Shown here: positions 32,908 through 42,954 of the stretch, piece after piece
Layout: each line of letters opens with the position of its first letter
Position numbering within the stretch: position 1 is the stretch's first letter
Source of the DNA: Halorussus vallis
Lineage (GTDB): Archaea; Halobacteriota; Halobacteria; Halobacteriales; Haladaptataceae
Assembly (NCBI RefSeq): GCF_024138165.1
Contig: NZ_CP100000.1
Location: 3,224,001-3,288,000 of the forward strand
Reading direction: 5' to 3'
Length of the DNA: 64,000 nucleotides
The notes under the pieces: generated by a model
The model's input: only the letters and a program-made list of their open reading frames with translations
Database searches by the model: none
Told to the model about the DNA's origin: nothing
Program-made: the position numbers and the translations under genes

Positions 32908-34152
32908 ATGGACAGGACGTCCGACGTTCGATTCTCGCGCTGGTGGCTCGTGGCGGTCGCCGCGGTGGCGATGGGCGCGGCCGGAACGTACCAGTTCGCG
33001 TGGTCGTCGATACGGATACCGCTGGGGACGAGGCTGGCGGCCCCCGAGGTCGCGCTCGGGACCGTGTTCACACTCTTCGTCGTCCTGCAGACCGTCTCGC
33101 AGTTCCCCGCCGGGTGGGTCCGCGACCGCTTCGGCCCCCGAATCCCGACGGCCGTGGGGGCGCTCTCGCTGGTCGCCGGATACGCGGGGACGGCCTGGGC
33201 ACCGACCATCGAGTACGTATACCTGTTCTACGGAATCGCCGGGGTCGGGGCCGGGACGATATACACCGTCGCCATCAACACGCCGGTGAAGTGGTTCGAC
33301 GAGCGACGCGGGTTGGCCACGGGCGTGGTCGGACTCGCCTACGCCGGACTGAGTTTCGTCCTGATTCCGTTCGTTCGGGAGAGCGTCGCCGACGACTTCG
33401 GGCGGACGATGCTCGGACTGGCGGCGCTCGTCGGCGTCCTGACGCTCGCGGCCGTCCCGTTTCTCAGGGACCCGGCCGACGAGGACGCCGACGCCGGCGA
33501 GGTCGGGAGCGACGGCGGCACCGTCCGGGAGGACGCAGACGCGGCGGTCGCGCCCGACGCGGGGGAGTACACCTGGCGCGAAGCGGTCCGGACGTGGCAG
33601 TTCTGGCTGCTCTACGCGGTGTTCGTCGCGGTCAACGGCGCCGGCCTGATGGTCATCGCGAAGGTCGTGGCGTTCGCCGAGGCGATGGCTCTCCCGGCGG
33701 CGGCCACCGTCGCGGCGTCGCTGGTCGCGCTGGGGGACGGCGCCGGGGTCCTCGTCGGCGGCACCGCCTCGGACCGGTTCGGACGCGAACGGACCATCAC
33801 CGTCTCGCTCGTCGTCTGCGGCGTCTGTCTCGCGGGCGCCGCGGCCGCGGCGGTCGAGGGGCGCTCGATGGCGTTCGTCGGCCTCGTCACCGCGGCCGCG
33901 TTCTTCCGCAGTCCCGTCTTCGCGGTGGTGCCGAGCCTCGTCGGCGACTACTACGGGACGAGTCACTCCTCGGAGAACTACGCCGTCCTCTACTCGTCGA
34001 AGCTGTGGGGCGGGGTCGGCGGCGGAACCGTCGCCAGCGCCCTCGTCGTCCGTCTCGGGTGGGACTCGACGTTCTTCCTGGCGGCGATTCTGGTGGTGCT
34101 CGCCGGATTCGGGACCTACTTCCTGCGGCCGGTGGATTCCGACCGGTCGTAG
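32908..34152 (+). CDS. MFS transporter (OxlT-like)
   Basis: The 414-residue protein has twelve hydrophobic segments in two groups of six, divided by an acidic loop (RDPADEDADAGEVGSDGGTV). The loop between segments 2 and 3 holds GWVRDRFGPRIPTAVG, the MFS G-x3-D-R-x-G-x-R motif, repeated as GTASDRFGRERT in the second half. The N-terminus (GAAGTYQFAWSSIRIPLGTR) resembles oxalate/formate-antiporter-like members. Substrate unknown. It starts at the ATG at 32908. Confidence 0.88.
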   Translation: MDRTSDVRFSRWWLVAVAAVAMGAAGTYQFAWSSIRIPLGTRLAAPEVALGTVFTLFVVLQTVSQFPAGWVRDRFGPRIPTAVGALSLVAGYAGTAWAPTIEYVYLFYGIAGVGAGTIYTVAINTPVKWFDERRGLATGVVGLAYAGLSFVLIPFVRESVADDFGRTMLGLAALVGVLTLAAVPFLRDPADEDADAGEVGSDGGTVREDADAAVAPDAGEYTWREAVRTWQFWLLYAVFVAVNGAGLMVIAKVVAFAEAMALPAAATVAASLVALGDGAGVLVGGTASDRFGRERTITVSLVVCGVCLAGAAAAAVEGRSMAFVGLVTAAAFFRSPVFAVVPSLVGDYYGTSHSSENYAVLYSSKLWGGVGGGTVASALVVRLGWDSTFFLAAILVVLAGFGTYFLRPVDSDRS

Positions 34153-36146: not shown

Positions 36147-37115
36147 TCAGGCGTCGGTCTGCTCGGCGTACACCCGAATCGCGTCGGCGTCCCGGTCCAG
36201 GTACTCGTTCGTCCAGGTTTCGTCGGGGTCGACCGGACCGTCGAGGAGGTCTGTCTCCGAGAGCGTCCCCGCGAGCGTTCGCCAGCGCTCGGCGTCGTGG
36301 TTGCCCCATCCGGCCTCGCGGACGTGGTCGGTCCACTGGAGTTCGTCGGCGGCGACTCCGAACTTCCGGCGTTCGACGTCCCGCGTCCGTTCGAGGGTGG
36401 CGTTGCGCGCAACCAGCGCGTCGACGGCCTCGTCCGGTTCGTTCGTGGCGGCGACCCAACCGCGGGCGGTCGCTCGGAGGAACGCCCTGACGGTGTCGGG
36501 GTTGGTCGCCGCGAACTCCGGGTTCGTCACGAGCGTCATCCCGTAGACGTCGAGGTGGTCGCCGATGGGTAACTCGTCGGCCGTTCGGCCGTGCTCTCGC
36601 TGGAGTTCGTGGCCGTTGGTGACGACGCCCACCGCGGCGTCGACCTCCCCGTCGAGTAGCCTGTGCTGCACGCGGTGGTGGGTGTGTTCGTCCACGGCCG
36701 CCAGTTCGACGTCGTCGCGCACGCCGGCGTTCTCAAGCAGTTGTGCGGTGAGGATTCGCGTCTTGGTGGCCGAGGGGGCGACAGTCCGACCCGCCAACTG
36801 GTCGGGACGCTCTAGGCGCTCCCCGAAGACGTCCCGGAGCGCGTATACCGCGGCGGGGGTCTTCTGAGTCACCGCGGCCACCGCGAGCGGCTCCGCCCCA
36901 CGACTCCGGACCGAGAGCACCGCGCTCCCGCCGGCGAGCGCGAACTCGCGCCGGCCCTTCCCGGCCTGTTCGGCGGCGAACGGCGAGCCGTGGCCCTCGA
37001 CGAATCGGACGTCGAGGCCTTCGTCCTCGTAGAACCCCCGCTCGCGCGCAAGGAAGTAGGGGGCCTGGAACCCGTTCGGTTCCCAGTTGAGCTGGAAGTC
37101 GACTGTGACCGTCAT
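36147..37115 (-). CDS. NMT1/THI5-like substrate-binding-fold protein without signal peptide
   Basis: The 322-residue product begins MTVTVDFQLNWEPNGFQAPY with FLARERGFYEDEGLDV immediately after. This L-N-W-x-P-N start is the NMT1/THI5-like signature shared by ThiY-type pyrimidine-binding proteins and yeast THI5. A ligand-site loop GSPFAAEQAGKGRREFALAG and LAGRTVAPSATKTRILTAQL follow. There is no leader, lipobox or transmembrane segment, so it is cytosolic. Its start overlaps the stop of the preceding SBP-like gene by four bases. It could be an enzyme, ligand buffer or periplasm-free binding protein; no permease or ATPase is nearby. Confidence 0.85.
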   Translation of the reverse strand: MTVTVDFQLNWEPNGFQAPYFLARERGFYEDEGLDVRFVEGHGSPFAAEQAGKGRREFALAGGSAVLSVRSRGAEPLAVAAVTQKTPAAVYALRDVFGERLERPDQLAGRTVAPSATKTRILTAQLLENAGVRDDVELAAVDEHTHHRVQHRLLDGEVDAAVGVVTNGHELQREHGRTADELPIGDHLDVYGMTLVTNPEFAATNPDTVRAFLRATARGWVAATNEPDEAVDALVARNATLERTRDVERRKFGVAADELQWTDHVREAGWGNHDAERWRTLAGTLSETDLLDGPVDPDETWTNEYLDRDADAIRVYAEQTDA

Positions 37116-38101
37116 CGGCCGACCTCCGTCGTGAAGGCGTCGTTGGGAATCCGGTCGACGCCCAGCACGTCGGCCCCCGCGACGTCGAGCAGGTGGTCGA
37201 AGAGTCGGTTCATCCCCGCCAGGGTCTCGCGGTCCCAGTCGGCGACCACCATCTCGCGCCAGCCGTCGCGAATCGCGCGAATCGTACGCGGGTCGTCGGT
37301 GTCCATCAGCCGGTCCCCGATTTCGGTCCAGAGGTCGTCGTCCTCCCGGAGTCTCGACACGGCGTCCCGGTAGGCGTCCCGGAAGCCGCCGACCGCCTTG
37401 GGCCGGTCGGCGAGGTAGCGCTCGCTCGTAAGGAACGTCGAAATCGGGAGCGTGCCGTCGGTGCCCGAGAGCCGCTGGACCAACTCCGCCATCGGGACGA
37501 CTTCCCTGCAGTCGCCGGTTTCGGTCAGTTCCGGGACGATCTGCCAGAACTGGAGGCCGGCGTCCACCTCGCCCGCCCGGAGCATCCGCGAGAGTTCGAC
37601 CTTCGAGCCGGCCTCGACCGAGGTCGCCGCCGCCTCGGGGTCGAAGTCGTGGTCCCGTCGGCAGGCTGCCCGCGTGAGAATCCAGTTCTTGTCGAGCCGC
37701 CGGACGACGCCGACGCGGCGGTCCCGGAGGTCGGCCAGCCCCTCGACGTCTGACCCGGGCGCGGCGATGAGCGAGCCGACGGTGCGACCGTAGGGGTGGA
37801 ACCCGACGATGGGAGCGCCCTCCGCACGTTCGCGGGCGGTCGAGAGGTAGTCGATGTCTATCAGGTCGGCGTCGCCCCCTTGTAGCTTGGCCTCGACGGT
37901 CTCCAGTCCGTCTTCGGTCTCGTCGGAGACGAGTTCCACGTCGAGGTGGAAGCCGTGGTCCCGGTCGAGTCCGAGTCGCTTGATAGCGTACAGGAGGTAC
38001 CGCGGACTTCCGTTGTGCTCGAACCGGGCGCGCATCACCGGTCTGTCGCCGGGCGCTTCGTGCTGTTCGTCGAACGCGGCCTGCTTCTCCTGGACGTCCA
38101 T
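37112..38101 (-). CDS. Second substrate-binding-fold protein, cytosolic
   Basis: The 329-residue protein has the type 2 periplasmic-binding fold: RYLLYAIKRLGLDRDHGFHL, then GDADLIDIDYLSTARE, then DLRDRRVGVVRRLDKNWILT and SRMLRAGEVDAGLQFWQIVP. No signal peptide is present. The start overlaps the upstream gene's TGA (TGATG). Members of this superfamily include 4,5-dihydroxyphthalate decarboxylase, which is a cytosolic enzyme, so catalysis should be considered. Middle gene of three overlapping genes. Confidence 0.82.
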   Translation of the reverse strand: MDVQEKQAAFDEQHEAPGDRPVMRARFEHNGSPRYLLYAIKRLGLDRDHGFHLDVELVSDETEDGLETVEAKLQGGDADLIDIDYLSTARERAEGAPIVGFHPYGRTVGSLIAAPGSDVEGLADLRDRRVGVVRRLDKNWILTRAACRRDHDFDPEAAATSVEAGSKVELSRMLRAGEVDAGLQFWQIVPELTETGDCREVVPMAELVQRLSGTDGTLPISTFLTSERYLADRPKAVGGFRDAYRDAVSRLREDDDLWTEIGDRLMDTDDPRTIRAIRDGWREMVVADWDRETLAGMNRLFDHLLDVAGADVLGVDRIPNDAFTTEVGR

Positions 38102-39003
38102 CACGGCCGCCCCCCGGGCGCGACGATGGAACGAATCTCGGCTTCCTCGTCGACGAGGTCGCGAGCCTTCATCCAGTCGAGGTGCTCGCGGAGTTCGTCA
38201 TAGTCGGCCAGTTCGGGCGTCTCGTACTCCGGGACGGTTATCTTCTCGCGGACCGCGTCCACGTCGACCTCCTCGAAGAGGGTCGGCGCGACCGACTCGT
38301 CCTTCTCGAGCATGTCCAGGTACAGTTCGCGGTAGTTCTCGGGGTTCTCGTTGACGGCCTCGACCGCGCGCCGGTAGCCCCGCATGAACTTCCGGAGGGT
38401 CTCGCCCGTGAGACGCTCCCCGCCCACGATTCCCATGTGGTTCTCGAACTCGGTCACCCGTTCGAACCCCAGTTCCTCGGCGAGCGTGCTGTGCGGTTCG
38501 AGCAGGGTCGCGGCGTCGACCTCCCGGTCGCGGAGCGCCCGGAGTCGGTCGGTCGGCATGCCGTGGTGTTCGAGCGTCACTTCCTCGGCGGCCACGTGCG
38601 CTTCGAGCGCGCGAATCGCGGTGTACTCCTGGCCGGTTCGACGGTTCACCGCGACCGGAACCCCCGCGAGGTCTTCGGGGGTTTCGATACCGGTGTCCGG
38701 GCGCGTGAACACGGCGTAGGGCTGGTCGGCGAACGTCCCCTTGGCTACGACTTTCCCGTCCCGCATGTCCCACGTGCGCTTGAGGCTCTCCCACTTACAG
38801 ATGGGGTAGAGGTCCACGTCGTAGTCGTCCGTCAGCGTCTCCTCGGCCGGAATGTACTTGCGCTCGACCTCTTCGCGGTCGCGCTCGACAAGTTCTACCT
38901 CCAACCCCTCGTCCCCGAAGTACCCCCGATCGCTCGCCACTCGCTGCGGTAGCATGAACGAGAACGGAAGGTGGAACAGCCGAACGGTCGTTCGTTCGGG
39001 CAT
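38101..39003 (-). CDS. Third substrate-binding-fold protein, cytosolic
   Basis: The 300-residue product starts MPERTTVRLFHLPFSFMLPQ and continues with RVASDRGYFGDEGLEVELVE. It then has DVDLYPICKWESLKRTWDMR, DLAGVPVAVNRRTGQEYTAI and DRLRALRDREVDAATLLEPH, the SBP pattern of two lobes. No leader or membrane segment. The ATG at 39003 lies close to a divergent promoter with an inverted repeat. First gene of the three-gene operon. It resembles ABC-type nitrate/sulfonate/taurine binding proteins in fold only. Confidence 0.82.
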   Translation of the reverse strand: MPERTTVRLFHLPFSFMLPQRVASDRGYFGDEGLEVELVERDREEVERKYIPAEETLTDDYDVDLYPICKWESLKRTWDMRDGKVVAKGTFADQPYAVFTRPDTGIETPEDLAGVPVAVNRRTGQEYTAIRALEAHVAAEEVTLEHHGMPTDRLRALRDREVDAATLLEPHSTLAEELGFERVTEFENHMGIVGGERLTGETLRKFMRGYRRAVEAVNENPENYRELYLDMLEKDESVAPTLFEEVDVDAVREKITVPEYETPELADYDELREHLDWMKARDLVDEEAEIRSIVAPGGRP

Positions 39004-39027
39004 AGAAAACCGGGTACCACGTTGTAT

Positions 39028-39058
39028 CACTTAGGGTTTTCCACGAATCCTTTAAGTG
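39028..39058. promoter_or_regulatory. Divergent promoter with imperfect inverted repeat
   Basis: CACTTAGGG at 39028-39036 and CCTTTAAGTG at 39049-39058 form an imperfect inverted repeat in the short gap between the divergent SBP operon and the cupin gene. TTTAAG at about 39051 is a TATA-like box some 27 bases before the cupin ATG at 39081, fitting a leaderless start. The nearby HTH-SBP regulator could act here; that is inference. Confidence 0.55.
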
Positions 39059-39080
39059 CATTAGCGTGGGTGATATTGGC

Positions 39081-39416
39081 ATGGACCAGGTGCACTTGAC
39101 CGCCCGAGAGACCGAGGAGGCAGTCGACGGCGTTCACTTCACGCAACTGGCCGCGGGGGAGAACATGAGCATCCAGCACTTCCGAATCGACGCGGGGGCG
39201 ACGATTCCGGAGCACACCCACGACCACGAGCAGCTGGGTTACATGACGAGTGGGGAACTGGTGGCCGTCGTGGACGGCGAGGAGTATCGCTTCGGCCCTG
39301 ACGATTCGTACTGCTTCCTGAGCGGGGAGCCACACGCCGCCGAGAACAGGGGCGACGAATCCGCGGTCGGCATCGGCATCTACAGTCCGCCGCGCCGAGA
39401 GGCCGACTGGAAGTGA
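39081..39416 (+). CDS. Small cupin-fold protein
   Basis: The 111-residue single-domain cupin has the metal motif IPEHTHDHEQLGYMTSGELV (H-x-H-x3-E type) and a second motif SGEPHAAENRGDES with His. The ATG at 39081 (MDQVHLTA) follows a TATA-like box at leaderless distance; the GTG at 39066 is an alternative. Such cupins act as dioxygenases, isomerases or small-molecule sensors. Two bases separate it from the VOC gene, so both are co-expressed, divergent from the SBP operon. Confidence 0.85.
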   Translation: MDQVHLTARETEEAVDGVHFTQLAAGENMSIQHFRIDAGATIPEHTHDHEQLGYMTSGELVAVVDGEEYRFGPDDSYCFLSGEPHAAENRGDESAVGIGIYSPPRREADWK

Positions 39417-39417
39417 G

Positions 39418-39846
39418 ATGCGGGGCGTAGACCACATCAACGTCGACGTCGACGACCTGACGGTCTGCCTCGAGTTCTACCGGGAGACGCTGGCTCTCGA
39501 ACTCCTGCGGTCGCCGGAGGAGTTCCGCGGCGAGCACGCCATGTTCCGCGCCGGCGAGACCGTCGTCACGCTGGCGGAGACGAACCGGGCCGAGGGGTGG
39601 CACGAACGAGGACTCGACCACCCGCTCGACAAGGCCCACGTCGCGTTCGAGGCCGACCGCGAGCGCTACGAGGCCCTGATCGACCGACTCGACGGTCAGT
39701 TCCCGAAACAGGGTCCGTACGACTGGGACGAGTTCGAGGGGTTCTACTTCCTCGACCCCGACGGGAACCTCCTGGAAGTCGTCACCTACGAGTCGCTCGA
39801 CGGCGAGCGCGAGCGGCCGCTTTTGACCCACGACGACGTCGAGTGA
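39418..39846 (+). CDS. VOC-family (glyoxalase/dioxygenase fold) protein
   Basis: The 142-residue product starts MRGVDHINVDVDDLTVCLEF with YRETLALELL after it, the VOC first module with His6 as a metal ligand. The second module holds KAHVAFEAD and FYFLDPDGNLLEVVTYE, with the conserved Glu of the D-P-D-G-N-L-L-E-V motif. His6, His (K-A-H) and Glu would form a metal site. It may be a lyase, dioxygenase or isomerase. Tightly coupled to the cupin gene, near the aldehyde oxidoreductase. Confidence 0.88.
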   Translation: MRGVDHINVDVDDLTVCLEFYRETLALELLRSPEEFRGEHAMFRAGETVVTLAETNRAEGWHERGLDHPLDKAHVAFEADRERYEALIDRLDGQFPKQGPYDWDEFEGFYFLDPDGNLLEVVTYESLDGERERPLLTHDDVE

Positions 39847-39911
39847 CGACACGAACGGGGCGGTCGGCCCCGGCGTCGAGACGCGGCGGGCGAGCGGGGT
39901 CGGACCGGTCG

Positions 39912-41564
39912 TCAGTCCCCGCTCTCGACTCTCCCTTCGGGGACCCTGCCGTCCCCGTTCCAGCCGCGGGCCTCGTAGTACTCCTCCAGCGCCGCCTCGA
40001 AGCCCGGGAGGTCGTACGGCAGGACGTCGTCGCTCCGGTCGAACCCCCGCCGGTTGTTGAAGTGCCGCTCCAGTTCCACGACCCGCGCGCCCACGTCCAG
40101 CAAGGTCCCGTACTCCGCGTCGAACAGTTCCTCCAACCGCTCCTCGCCGACGTAGCCGCTCGAGAACGCGCAGACGACGGCGCTGTCCTTGAAGGCCGCG
40201 GCGTTCTCCGACTCGACGAGGAACGACGCCTTGCCGTCGAGGCCCTCCGGGTCCAGTTCCCCCGAGTACTCCGCGGTGAGTATCTCGGAGTACATGTGGT
40301 CGGCCCCGCTGTTGGAGGTGGCGTAACTGAGCCCCTGGCCGTTGATGACCCGGCCGTCGTGGGCCGCGAACTCCAGGCCCTTCGACGTCCAGTTCTCGAC
40401 GCCGAGTTCGTCGTGGATTCGGGCCACGCCCTCCGCCAGCAGGTCGCCCACGCCCTCCCTGCGGGCGATCTTCTCGACGAGGTCGTGGACGAGTTCGGCG
40501 TTGCCGAACTCGTCCACGCTGGCGAGGTACGCCGAGACGGTGACCCCGCAGGAGATGGTGTCGAGTCCGAGTTCGTCGCAGAGGCTGTTGGACTTCATCA
40601 CGTCCACCACGTCGCCGACGCCGGCGTTACTCCCGAACGAGAACACCGTCTCGAACTCGGGACCCTCGGTTTCGAGGCCGCGTTCCTCCTCGCGGGTCGG
40701 GAGCTTGCAGGCGAACGCACACTGCGAGCAGGTCCCGCGGCGGTACTTCTTCGCCTCGACCGCGTTCCCGCCGATTTCCGCGGCGTCCTCGAAGGAGAAC
40801 TCCGAGAAGTACCTGGTCGGCAGCGAGAACTCGTCGTTGATGAGTTCGGTGCTGCCGGTCGTCCCCTGTCGCTTCATGATGTCGTCGGCGTTCGCGGCGT
40901 CGCGGTGGACCGCCGCCTGGATGTCCGGCACGTCGACCTCCGGGGCCGAGTCGCCCGCGAAGCTGACGCACTTCAGGTTCTTCGCCCCCATCACCGCACC
41001 GAGTCCGCCTCGGCCGAACGCCCGGGTGTCGGAGGTCATCATCGCCGCGTACCTGACCAGGTTCTCGCCGGCCGGCCCGGCGGTGACGAGGTGTTCGGAG
41101 CCGAGGTCGCGCTCGGTCTCGACGTACTCGCTGGTCTCGGAGACGGTCGCGCCTTCGAGAGCGGGCACCTCCTCGAACGTCACCCCGTCGTCGGTGACGT
41201 GAACCGCGAGAAGGTCGTCGCTCTCGCCGACGATTTCGACCGCCGCGTGGCCGGTCTCGACGAAGTTCCGCGAGAGGAATCCGCCCGCGTTGGTCGAGCG
41301 GATGCCGCCGGTGAGCGGCGAAACCGCCGTGGCGTTCATCCGACCGGTGAAGCTCATCCGGGACTGCTGGAGCGGTCCTGACGAGAAGTAGAGCCGATTC
41401 CGGCGGCCGAGCGGGTCGGCGTCGAACGGAATCCTGTCGTGGGCCAACTTGGTGGCGACGCCTCGGCCGCCGACGAACGACGCCAGCACGTCGTCGACGT
41501 CCTCGGTGCGGCTCTCGCGCTCGCTCAGGTCGATTGTCAGTAGCGTACCGTTCGCCCGGAGCAT
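39912..41564 (-). CDS. Aldehyde:ferredoxin oxidoreductase family (tungsto/molybdopterin enzyme)
   Basis: The 550-residue protein shows the AOR pattern: VGGRGVATKLAHDRIPFDAD, TGGIRSTNAGGFLSRNFVET (N-terminal pterin-binding sheet), AFGRGGLGAVMGAKNLKCVS, and the [4Fe-4S] ligands CSQCAFAC (about 282-289) with further Cys at DTISCG (about 345) and SAVVCAFSSG (about 470). Family members oxidise aldehydes to acids with ferredoxin, using a tungsten or molybdenum bis-pterin cofactor. Length is a little below the usual 600. It is convergent with the cupin-VOC genes and upstream of the HTH-SBP gene on the same strand, suggesting a shared pathway. Confidence 0.92.
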   Translation of the reverse strand: MLRANGTLLTIDLSERESRTEDVDDVLASFVGGRGVATKLAHDRIPFDADPLGRRNRLYFSSGPLQQSRMSFTGRMNATAVSPLTGGIRSTNAGGFLSRNFVETGHAAVEIVGESDDLLAVHVTDDGVTFEEVPALEGATVSETSEYVETERDLGSEHLVTAGPAGENLVRYAAMMTSDTRAFGRGGLGAVMGAKNLKCVSFAGDSAPEVDVPDIQAAVHRDAANADDIMKRQGTTGSTELINDEFSLPTRYFSEFSFEDAAEIGGNAVEAKKYRRGTCSQCAFACKLPTREEERGLETEGPEFETVFSFGSNAGVGDVVDVMKSNSLCDELGLDTISCGVTVSAYLASVDEFGNAELVHDLVEKIARREGVGDLLAEGVARIHDELGVENWTSKGLEFAAHDGRVINGQGLSYATSNSGADHMYSEILTAEYSGELDPEGLDGKASFLVESENAAAFKDSAVVCAFSSGYVGEERLEELFDAEYGTLLDVGARVVELERHFNNRRGFDRSDDVLPYDLPGFEAALEEYYEARGWNGDGRVPEGRVESGD

Positions 41565-41691
41565 CTCCGCTAGCCGTTCGGGCGCGAGAACGTAAACCGA
41601 TGGGGCTCTCGACGCCGTCAGACCGGCCGACCCGACGACGGTGCCTCGGGCCCGGTCCGGTCTGGTCCGGTCCGCGTCGCTCCGGCCGGAC

Positions 41692-42954
41692 TCACCCGTC
41701 GATGTCGGCCACCGCGAGCGCGGTTTCGAGTCGTCGCCACGTCTCGGGGTCCTGCCACCCCCAGCCGCGTCTGCGGACCGCGTCGCTCGACCCGAACTCG
41801 TCGGCGGCCAGTTCGAAGGTGCGTCGCTCGCTCGCGGAGTCGGCCCCGCCGACGGCGTGAACCTCGTACGGACGCCGGACCGCCTCGGCCCACCCCGCGG
41901 TCGTGGCGGCGAGGAAGTCCGCGAGCGGCTCCCTCCGCCGTCGGAGCGCCTCCTCGGGGGCTATCAGGCACGATCCGTAGATGGGAAAGCGGTCGGCCAC
42001 CAGCAGCGAGTCGACGCGGACGCCCTCCTCGCGGAGTTCCCGCGGGTCGGAGAATGACCCCGTCACGACGTCGACCCTCCCGGAGCGGAGCGCGTCCCGC
42101 TCCTCGCCCGCGACGTCGACGAGTTCGACGTCCGAGAGCACGCCCGACTGCGAGAGGAACAGCCGAGCGAGAAGTCCGACCTCGGACTCGACGGGCATCC
42201 CGATTCGGCGGCCGCGTAGCTGTTGGACGCTCTTGAACGAGGTTCCGAACCGGTCGCGCTCGGCGTAGAGGACGGCCATCGCGCGCTGGAACGGCACCGC
42301 TATCGGCACCACCTTCCGCCCTTGCTGGCGGGCCCGGAGGACCGACGTCGCCCCCGCCACGCCGACGTCGGCCGCGCCGGAGCTGACCGCCTCGACGGCG
42401 GCCGAGGAGCCGTCGTTTCGTTCGAAATCGACCGAGACCCCGCGGTCGGCGTACTCGCCGCGGCCCGCGGCCGCGAACAGCGGCAGGTGGAGACCGTTGG
42501 GCGCCCAGTTGAGGCCGACCGTCACCTCGCGACCGCCGTCCGCGTCTGCGCCTGCGTCTCCGCCGGGTTCGTCGGCGACGTCGAACACGGCTCGCGCTCG
42601 GTCGAGGAGCGCGTCGGCGTGGCCGCCGTACACCCGCTCGACGGCGGTCTCGCGGTCGCAGGAGACGTACCACGCGCGCGGCGGACGGCCGCGCGTCTCG
42701 TCCCGGACGGTGGTGGTGTTCACGAAGTCGCGCTCCTGGAGCCGAGAGAGGGCGTCCGTGACCGCGTTGCGACTCAGTTCGGTGCCGACCCGCACGGCGA
42801 GTCGCGACGCGTGCGCGTCCGCGTCGCGCTCACGCTCGGCCCGAAGCAGGAGGTACGCCAACACGCGTCCGAGGTCTTCGCCGAGTCCCACCGCGAGGCG
42901 GTCGACGAGCCGACCGTCGTCGTCGGAGAGGACCGGGAACTCGCGAACGTCCAT
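41692..42954 (-). CDS. Winged-HTH regulator fused to NMT1/THI5-like domain
   Basis: The 420-residue protein begins with a winged HTH (VLAYLLLRAERERDADAHAS, LSRNAVTDALSRLQERDFVN, TTTVRDETRGRPPRAWYVS, about 28-110). From about residue 145 it carries an SBP-fold domain with the same VGLNWAPNGLHLPLFAAAGR signature as the cytosolic protein at 36147, then GAADVGVAGATSVLRARQQG and LRGRRIGMPVESEVGLLARL. The fusion argues that this domain senses a cytosolic ligand and alters DNA binding. Its targets could be the neighbouring SBP operon or the divergent promoter at 39028-39058. It follows the aldehyde oxidoreductase on the same strand by about 128 bases. Confidence 0.88.
   Translation of the reverse strand: MDVREFPVLSDDDGRLVDRLAVGLGEDLGRVLAYLLLRAERERDADAHASRLAVRVGTELSRNAVTDALSRLQERDFVNTTTVRDETRGRPPRAWYVSCDRETAVERVYGGHADALLDRARAVFDVADEPGGDAGADADGGREVTVGLNWAPNGLHLPLFAAAGRGEYADRGVSVDFERNDGSSAAVEAVSSGAADVGVAGATSVLRARQQGRKVVPIAVPFQRAMAVLYAERDRFGTSFKSVQQLRGRRIGMPVESEVGLLARLFLSQSGVLSDVELVDVAGEERDALRSGRVDVVTGSFSDPRELREEGVRVDSLLVADRFPIYGSCLIAPEEALRRRREPLADFLAATTAGWAEAVRRPYEVHAVGGADSASERRTFELAADEFGSSDAVRRRGWGWQDPETWRRLETALAVADIDG

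Follow-up and report, generated by a model that had tools for sequence, protein, structure and literature searches.

A group of genes for proteins with the substrate-binding protein (SBP) fold lies in a stretch of 64,000 nucleotides (the window) from the haloarchaeon Halorussus vallis (contig NZ_CP100000.1, positions 3,224,001 to 3,288,000). Three of these genes are read from the minus strand and overlap by 4 bp at each junction, SBP1/SBP2 and SBP2/SBP3, in a check of the open reading frames. Genes for a small cupin and a VOC-family protein diverge from them, and the group is completed by an aldehyde:ferredoxin oxidoreductase (AOR) gene and by a gene in which a helix-turn-helix (HTH) domain is fused to an SBP-fold domain (HTH-SBP). 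The initial annotation, made from the letters of the DNA, had laid out this arrangement with exact coordinates (Table 1). What it did not contain is the clue developed here: SBP2 is a relative of PqqT, a bacterial protein that binds pyrroloquinoline quinone (PQQ), and the cluster travels with genes for PQQ-dehydrogenases.

Table 1. Genes and features of the cluster and of its dehydrogenase partners. Plain coordinates are those of the window; coordinates with a locus number are those of that locus in the genome survey.
Feature	Coordinates	Strand	Description
SBP1	36147..37115	minus	322 aa; leaderless NMT1/THI5-like SBP fold; HTHHRVxH insertion and KTR motif trio-specific
SBP2	37112..38104	minus	330 aa; leaderless PqqT-related SBP fold; LDKNWIL motif conserved; predicted PQQ binder
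SBP3	38101..39030	minus	309 aa; leaderless SBP fold; probable start ATG 39003; invariant C78-K-W-E-S
Putative divergent promoter/palindrome CACTTA...TAAGTG	39028..39058	none	window copy judged by eye
Small cupin	39066..39416	plus	probable start ATG 39081; metal site intact (H50, H52, Q56, H90)
VOC-family protein	39418..39846	plus	two-His/one-Glu metal site intact (H6, H74, E120)
AOR	39912..41564	minus	AFOR_N and AFOR_C; optional member
HTH-SBP	41692..42954	minus	420 aa; fusion of HTH and NMT1 domains; optional in cluster
Haloarchaeal PQQ-dehydrogenase homologue	L053:5833-7545		also in L101, L102, L103 and other loci
F5	L053:4922-5827		conserved dehydrogenase partner of about 300 aa

In Pfam, PF09084 (NMT1/THI5-like) matches all four SBP domains, SBP2 weakly (E 6e-6); the cupin belongs to Cupin_2, the VOC protein to Glyoxalase, and the AOR to AFOR_N with AFOR_C. 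The Fe4S4 cysteines of this last protein align with those of the Pyrococcus AOR (1aor), and it is a member of the AOR family. SBP1, SBP2 and SBP3 have no leader, lipobox or transmembrane segment, their best 19-residue hydropathy windows scoring 0.57-0.87, and their orthologues in other genomes likewise lack a leader, with starts that fall just upstream of the conserved domain. The absence of such signals had been claimed from the window, and both kinds of evidence agree with it. The export signal or lipobox expected of the SBP of an ATP-binding cassette (ABC) importer is thus missing from the trio. The accompanying claim that no permease or ATPase gene is near holds for related ABC genes, of which tblastn found no homologue anywhere in the window. 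The window does, however, contain a gene for a transporter of the major facilitator superfamily (MFS) at 32908-34152, about 2 kb away from SBP1, and a gene for a MinD-type ATPase stands between the two.

The probable start codons of SBP3 and of the cupin are separated by 77 bases, one fewer than the initial annotation gave. The inverted repeat that it placed there is present; 6-7 bp repeats occur at 39005-39041 and at the palindrome of Table 1, and by themselves the 7-bp repeats of this spacer are not significant. Many relatives have a palindromic divergent TATA/promoter element: 28 of 48 spacers fit one motif, as against 0.6 in shuffled sequences. The window spacer resembles that element by eye, yet falls outside the motif.

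The cluster is conserved well beyond chance. In a survey of 292 genomes of the class, SBP3 orthologues (at least 59% identity) occur in 41, and SBP2 occurs in exactly those 41; the remaining genomes have no SBP2 homologue at E≤1e-12. Counted over 41 well-flanked, deduplicated loci, SBP2, SBP3 and the cupin are always present and SBP1 and the VOC gene are each present in 40. Because these genes are near-universal, the core of the unit is taken to be SBP3-SBP2-SBP1 with the divergent cupin and the VOC gene, and the expectation that gene order would be kept among haloarchaea is borne out for this core (40-41 of 41). Complete sets of metal ligands are also kept in the cupin and VOC proteins of the relatives. 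The AOR and HTH-SBP genes, which had been counted as cluster members, are not part of the core (11 and 7 of the 41 loci, respectively), and a formate-dehydrogenase-like gene, FdhA, is an optional companion in 8. In Halococcus dombrowskii, a gene of the xanthine-dehydrogenase (XDH) family occupies the AOR slot. A pathway "ending in aldehyde oxidation", as first suggested, is still plausible as an optional step.

The best pointer to function comes from SBP2. Its only relatives in the PDB at E≤0.1 are 9b1u (identical in sequence to 9b1v) and 9ooz, with E 3e-25, and the titles of these entries name PqqT with PQQ. PqqT binds PQQ with a Kd of 50 nM (PMC12828617, PMC12124388). SBP2 keeps the LDKNWIL motif and has an aromatic residue (Phe186) at the position of PqqT Tyr161. 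Residue K142, changed in the published K142D variant, probably corresponds to the lysine of LDKNW, provided that its numbering counts a 27-residue signal peptide. Bacterial relatives of SBP2 (about 30% identity), which are found on plasmids, adjoin a PQQ-dependent methanol/ethanol dehydrogenase gene in Tateyamaria, Sulfitobacter and Pseudosulfitobacter. The relative in Azospirillum sits among quinoprotein-associated genes, and that of Sinorhizobium mexicanum has a PQQ-dehydrogenase homologue nearby and pqqC about 14 kb away. SBP2 therefore shares with the PqqT family both a specific sequence relation and a genomic link to PQQ enzymes or synthesis. It lacks the periplasmic or exported location of that family, there being no leader in the window protein or in its relatives. 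SBP2 likely binds PQQ, and the claim is that it would work like PqqT in the cytosol, not that it is PqqT. A tandem duplicate of SBP2 is seen in Haloplanus-type loci (L047, L063, L088, L093).

The second line of evidence is the company that the cluster keeps. Homologues of PQQ-dehydrogenases, defined as matches to TIGR03075 at E≤1e-60, are found in 39 of the 41 genomes with the trio and in 10 of the 251 others (Fisher 1e-36), and a looser search raises the former count to 40. At the genus level the homologue is present in 13 of 14 trio genera (p 6e-10). The dehydrogenase gene lies no more than 10.4 kb from the trio in 21 of the 41 genomes, representing eight genera. All 44 distinct haloarchaeal dehydrogenases have the Trp and Asn of the PQQ site, the catalytic Asp, the Lys, and the lanthanide-type Asp at +2, with residue roles as in methanol dehydrogenases; the metal-ligand Glu is kept in 41 of the 44. 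No signal peptide was seen on the haloarchaeal dehydrogenases examined, and the one tested has no CxxCH haem motif.

Near many trio loci the dehydrogenase homologue forms a gene pair with F5. This protein has a confidently predicted, all-helical model (mean pLDDT 88.6) and no Pfam, NCBIfam or significant PDB fold match. A twin-arginine translocation (Tat)-like motif, RRxFL, is absent from the F5 proteins of the dehydrogenase branch nearest to the trio and present in those of a more distant branch, so that its presence splits almost cleanly along the dehydrogenase branches.

How these cells would obtain PQQ is a separate question. None of the 49 genomes that carry the trio or the dehydrogenase has pqqC, a gene that the same search finds in two bacterial control records. 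Canonical PQQ synthesis in the carriers was rejected on this ground. Matches to the PqqE model all fall short of its cut-off, and each of the 14 control genomes has them too, which gives them the look of generic radical-SAM proteins. A candidate for uptake is an ABC importer encoded beside dehydrogenase genes, which consists of a Tat-lipoprotein SBP (SBP1b, 42% identical to SBP1), two permeases and an ATPase; the same neighbourhood occurs in trio-less genomes. The importer permease is found in 35 genomes, 33 of which have the dehydrogenase, including all 10 that have the dehydrogenase and no trio. The 49 dehydrogenase genomes divide into 23 with trio and importer, 16 with the trio only, 10 with the importer only and none with neither (Fisher p 0.02, a value that ignores phylogeny). 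A permease and ATPase encoded elsewhere and always accompanying these SBPs would have counted against the transporter-free pathway of the initial annotation; such companionship is half observed, with a related importer in 23 of the 41 trio genomes. In Halorussus vallis the importer is at 3.74 Mb (L074, C1:3738000-3755000), beside a PQQ-dehydrogenase homologue. That homologue has an apparent cupredoxin-like N-terminal stretch and no Cys-Cys pair. Importer genes also adjoin HTH-SBP in four loci (L048, L089, L092, L109); this fusion protein, elsewhere often near importer or dehydrogenase genes, is a probable ligand-sensing regulator.

The explanation proposed, which is given about an even chance of being right, is that SBP3-SBP2-SBP1 with the cupin and VOC proteins form a cytosolic accessory module that handles PQQ for predicted lanthanide-type quinoprotein alcohol dehydrogenases. 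The link of the cluster to PQQ is strong; the functions given to SBP1, SBP3, cupin and VOC are inferred. PQQ would enter through the ABC importer, or by another route in genomes without it, and would be bound inside the cell by SBP2. The trio may capture PQQ and hold or adjust it, perhaps together with the cupin and VOC metalloproteins; SBP1, SBP3, cupin and VOC could help in its capture, protection, modification or loading. The cofactor would then be loaded into the leaderless dehydrogenase. Further oxidation of the aldehyde or acid might fall to an AOR, a molybdenum hydroxylase of the XDH family or a formate-dehydrogenase-like enzyme where one is present. The ligands of SBP1 and SBP3 are probably acidic and the same or related ones; what exactly the two proteins do is a guess. 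Invariant His/Lys/Arg/Cys motifs are found in this pair. The predicted model of SBP3 (mean pLDDT 87.7) has a generic SBP fold, with ThiY, THI5 and SsuA as its nearest neighbours and with PqqT and the enzyme DszB also among them (TM up to 0.65). Leaderless SBP3-like proteins, 25-30% identical, precede genes for an ABC ATPase, a Tat-lipoprotein SBP and a permease at L076:7474-11586 and L078:4834-8578, as cytosolic SBPs that accompany an importer.

Several observations weigh against the proposal. Identity between SBP2 and PqqT is only about 30%, and the two were compared as sequences. The basic motifs of SBP1 are unlike those of its importer relative SBP1b, so the ligands of the two may differ. 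One trio genome (G037, a single contig) has no PQQ-dehydrogenase homologue and is the sole exception even in the looser search, while ten genomes have the dehydrogenase without the trio; for these reasons the link between them is not obligatory. The curated cut-off of TIGR03075 (480 bits) is reached in none of the 292 genomes, the best score being 413, and the haloarchaeal dehydrogenases are therefore regarded as a distant branch. Halorussus vallis itself has three PQQ-dehydrogenase homologues, none beside this cluster, and all three of its F5/dehydrogenase pairs are in the RRxFL-bearing branch. Because their F5 partner has the Tat-like motif, dehydrogenases of that branch may be exported rather than cytosolic.

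Genomes with the trio almost always have the dehydrogenase as well, and the converse does not hold, a pattern more in keeping with an accessory function than with obligatory biosynthesis. Room is kept for synthesis by the 16 dehydrogenase genomes that have the trio without the importer. The three SBPs could be enzymes that, with cupin and VOC, form an undescribed archaeal pathway in the cytosol for making or completing PQQ, or a quinone cofactor resembling it. Where pqqC is missing, such a pathway would take the place of import and would feed the lanthanide-type quinoprotein alcohol dehydrogenases. Enzymes with the SBP fold exist, THI5 and DszB among the fold neighbours of SBP3 and MqnA/MqnD as further examples. 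The intact metal sites of cupin and VOC, the invariant motifs of SBP1 and SBP3, the lack of pqqC in the carriers, and a distribution of trio and importer in which one seems able to stand in for the other as supplier of the cofactor all speak for such a route. It is nevertheless unlikely: ten dehydrogenase genomes manage without the trio, the conserved neighbours include no radical-SAM (PqqE-type) or pqqC-type gene, PqqT is a binder and not an enzyme, and the complementarity of trio and importer is of the phylogeny-blind kind noted above.

A further reading, rather unlikely, has the trio bind not the cofactor but the alcohol or what it is oxidised to, which would make the cluster a catabolic module downstream of the dehydrogenase, with cupin, VOC and AOR, XDH or FdhA. 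The oxidoreductase neighbours (AOR, FdhA, XDH family) would suit such a module, as would the existence of SBP-fold enzymes for small aromatics or acids. These oxidoreductases are optional, however, whereas SBP2, SBP3 and the cupin are in every well-flanked locus, and SBP2 groups with PqqT and has bacterial relatives in PQQ gene neighbourhoods.

A regulatory task is more doubtful. The C-terminal domain of NrtC is an SBP-like, cytosolic domain fused to the ATPase of an ABC importer, and the leaderless proteins of the trio might in a similar way regulate an importer or transcription, or act as ligand sensors. Such a task is favoured by the leaderless relatives of SBP3 whose genes stand with those of an ABC importer (ATPase, Tat-lipoprotein SBP and permease), and HTH-SBP pairs the SBP fold with DNA binding within this family. 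The trio SBPs, in contrast to the NrtC domain, are free-standing and mostly have no importer genes nearby, and 16 trio genomes with the dehydrogenase have no related importer. Regulation also leaves the metal sites of cupin and VOC unexplained, and three different SBPs for a single regulatory task would be odd.

THI5-like pyrimidine synthesis or other thiamine chemistry, a precedent raised by the initial annotation, has next to no chance: ThiY (E 7e-16) and THI5 (E 1e-12) are among the nearest solved relatives of SBP1 and share its fold and NMT1 family, but the pyridoxal phosphate (PLP)-binding Lys62 and the His66 of THI5 align with Ala61 and Ala65, and SBP1 contains no Cys, hence no CCCFC motif, which excludes it as a THI5-type synthase of hydroxymethylpyrimidine phosphate (HMP-P). 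His66 is the donor histidine according to a published account (PMC10848271). ThiY differs further in being exported, SBP1 being leaderless.

Among known systems, PqqT of Methylorubrum extorquens, a periplasmic PQQ-binding protein, resembles SBP2 through LDKNWIL, the aromatic residue and the PQQ-dehydrogenase neighbours of bacterial relatives. SBP2 differs in being archaeal, in lacking a signal peptide and in being accompanied by two more leaderless SBPs, a cupin and a VOC protein. Bacterial PQQ-dehydrogenase clusters of the XoxF/ExaF/PedH type (with pedF, ABC and SBP genes) resemble the haloarchaeal system in the PQQ and lanthanide-type site of the dehydrogenase, in having a PqqT-group SBP and in their ABC importer genes; in the haloarchaea the dehydrogenase has no signal peptide or (in the one tested) CxxCH, pqqC is missing and the SBPs are leaderless. 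DszB, MqnA/MqnD and 4,5-dihydroxyphthalate decarboxylase likewise have the SBP fold in the cytosol, yet no specific sequence relation to them was found, their catalytic residues lying outside the comparison. No model of 4,5-dihydroxyphthalate decarboxylase is among the Pfam or NCBIfam matches, and no direct comparison with that enzyme was made.

Other genes recur around the cluster. F8 (L053:13690-14550) is a membrane protein whose N-terminus contains Cys, and F30 (L063:11380-11982), of about 200 aa, is a neighbour of the formate-dehydrogenase-like gene; neither has a Pfam match. Compact islands are seen on plasmids of Halomarina sp. BND7 (L101) and Halococcus dombrowskii (L100). They contain the trio, two dehydrogenase genes, Na/Ca antiporters, ferredoxin, a CDC48 ATPase, a methyltransferase, and HTH-SBP or importer genes, and could possibly represent a mobile PQQ island.

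All components but F5 are members of known families. The novelty lies in a leaderless, PQQ-linked module of three SBPs that is tied to lanthanide-type dehydrogenases and occurs in archaea lacking pqqC; no description of such a haloarchaeal PQQ, quinoprotein or lanthanide system was found in the open-access literature, subscription literature being outside the search. The proposal, if true, would mean that PQQ biochemistry, and probably that of lanthanides too, takes place within haloarchaeal cells whose genomes have no pqqC. It would also explain proteins that are currently annotated merely as "ABC transporter substrate-binding protein", and it raises the testable question of how archaea with quinoprotein dehydrogenases are supplied with PQQ.

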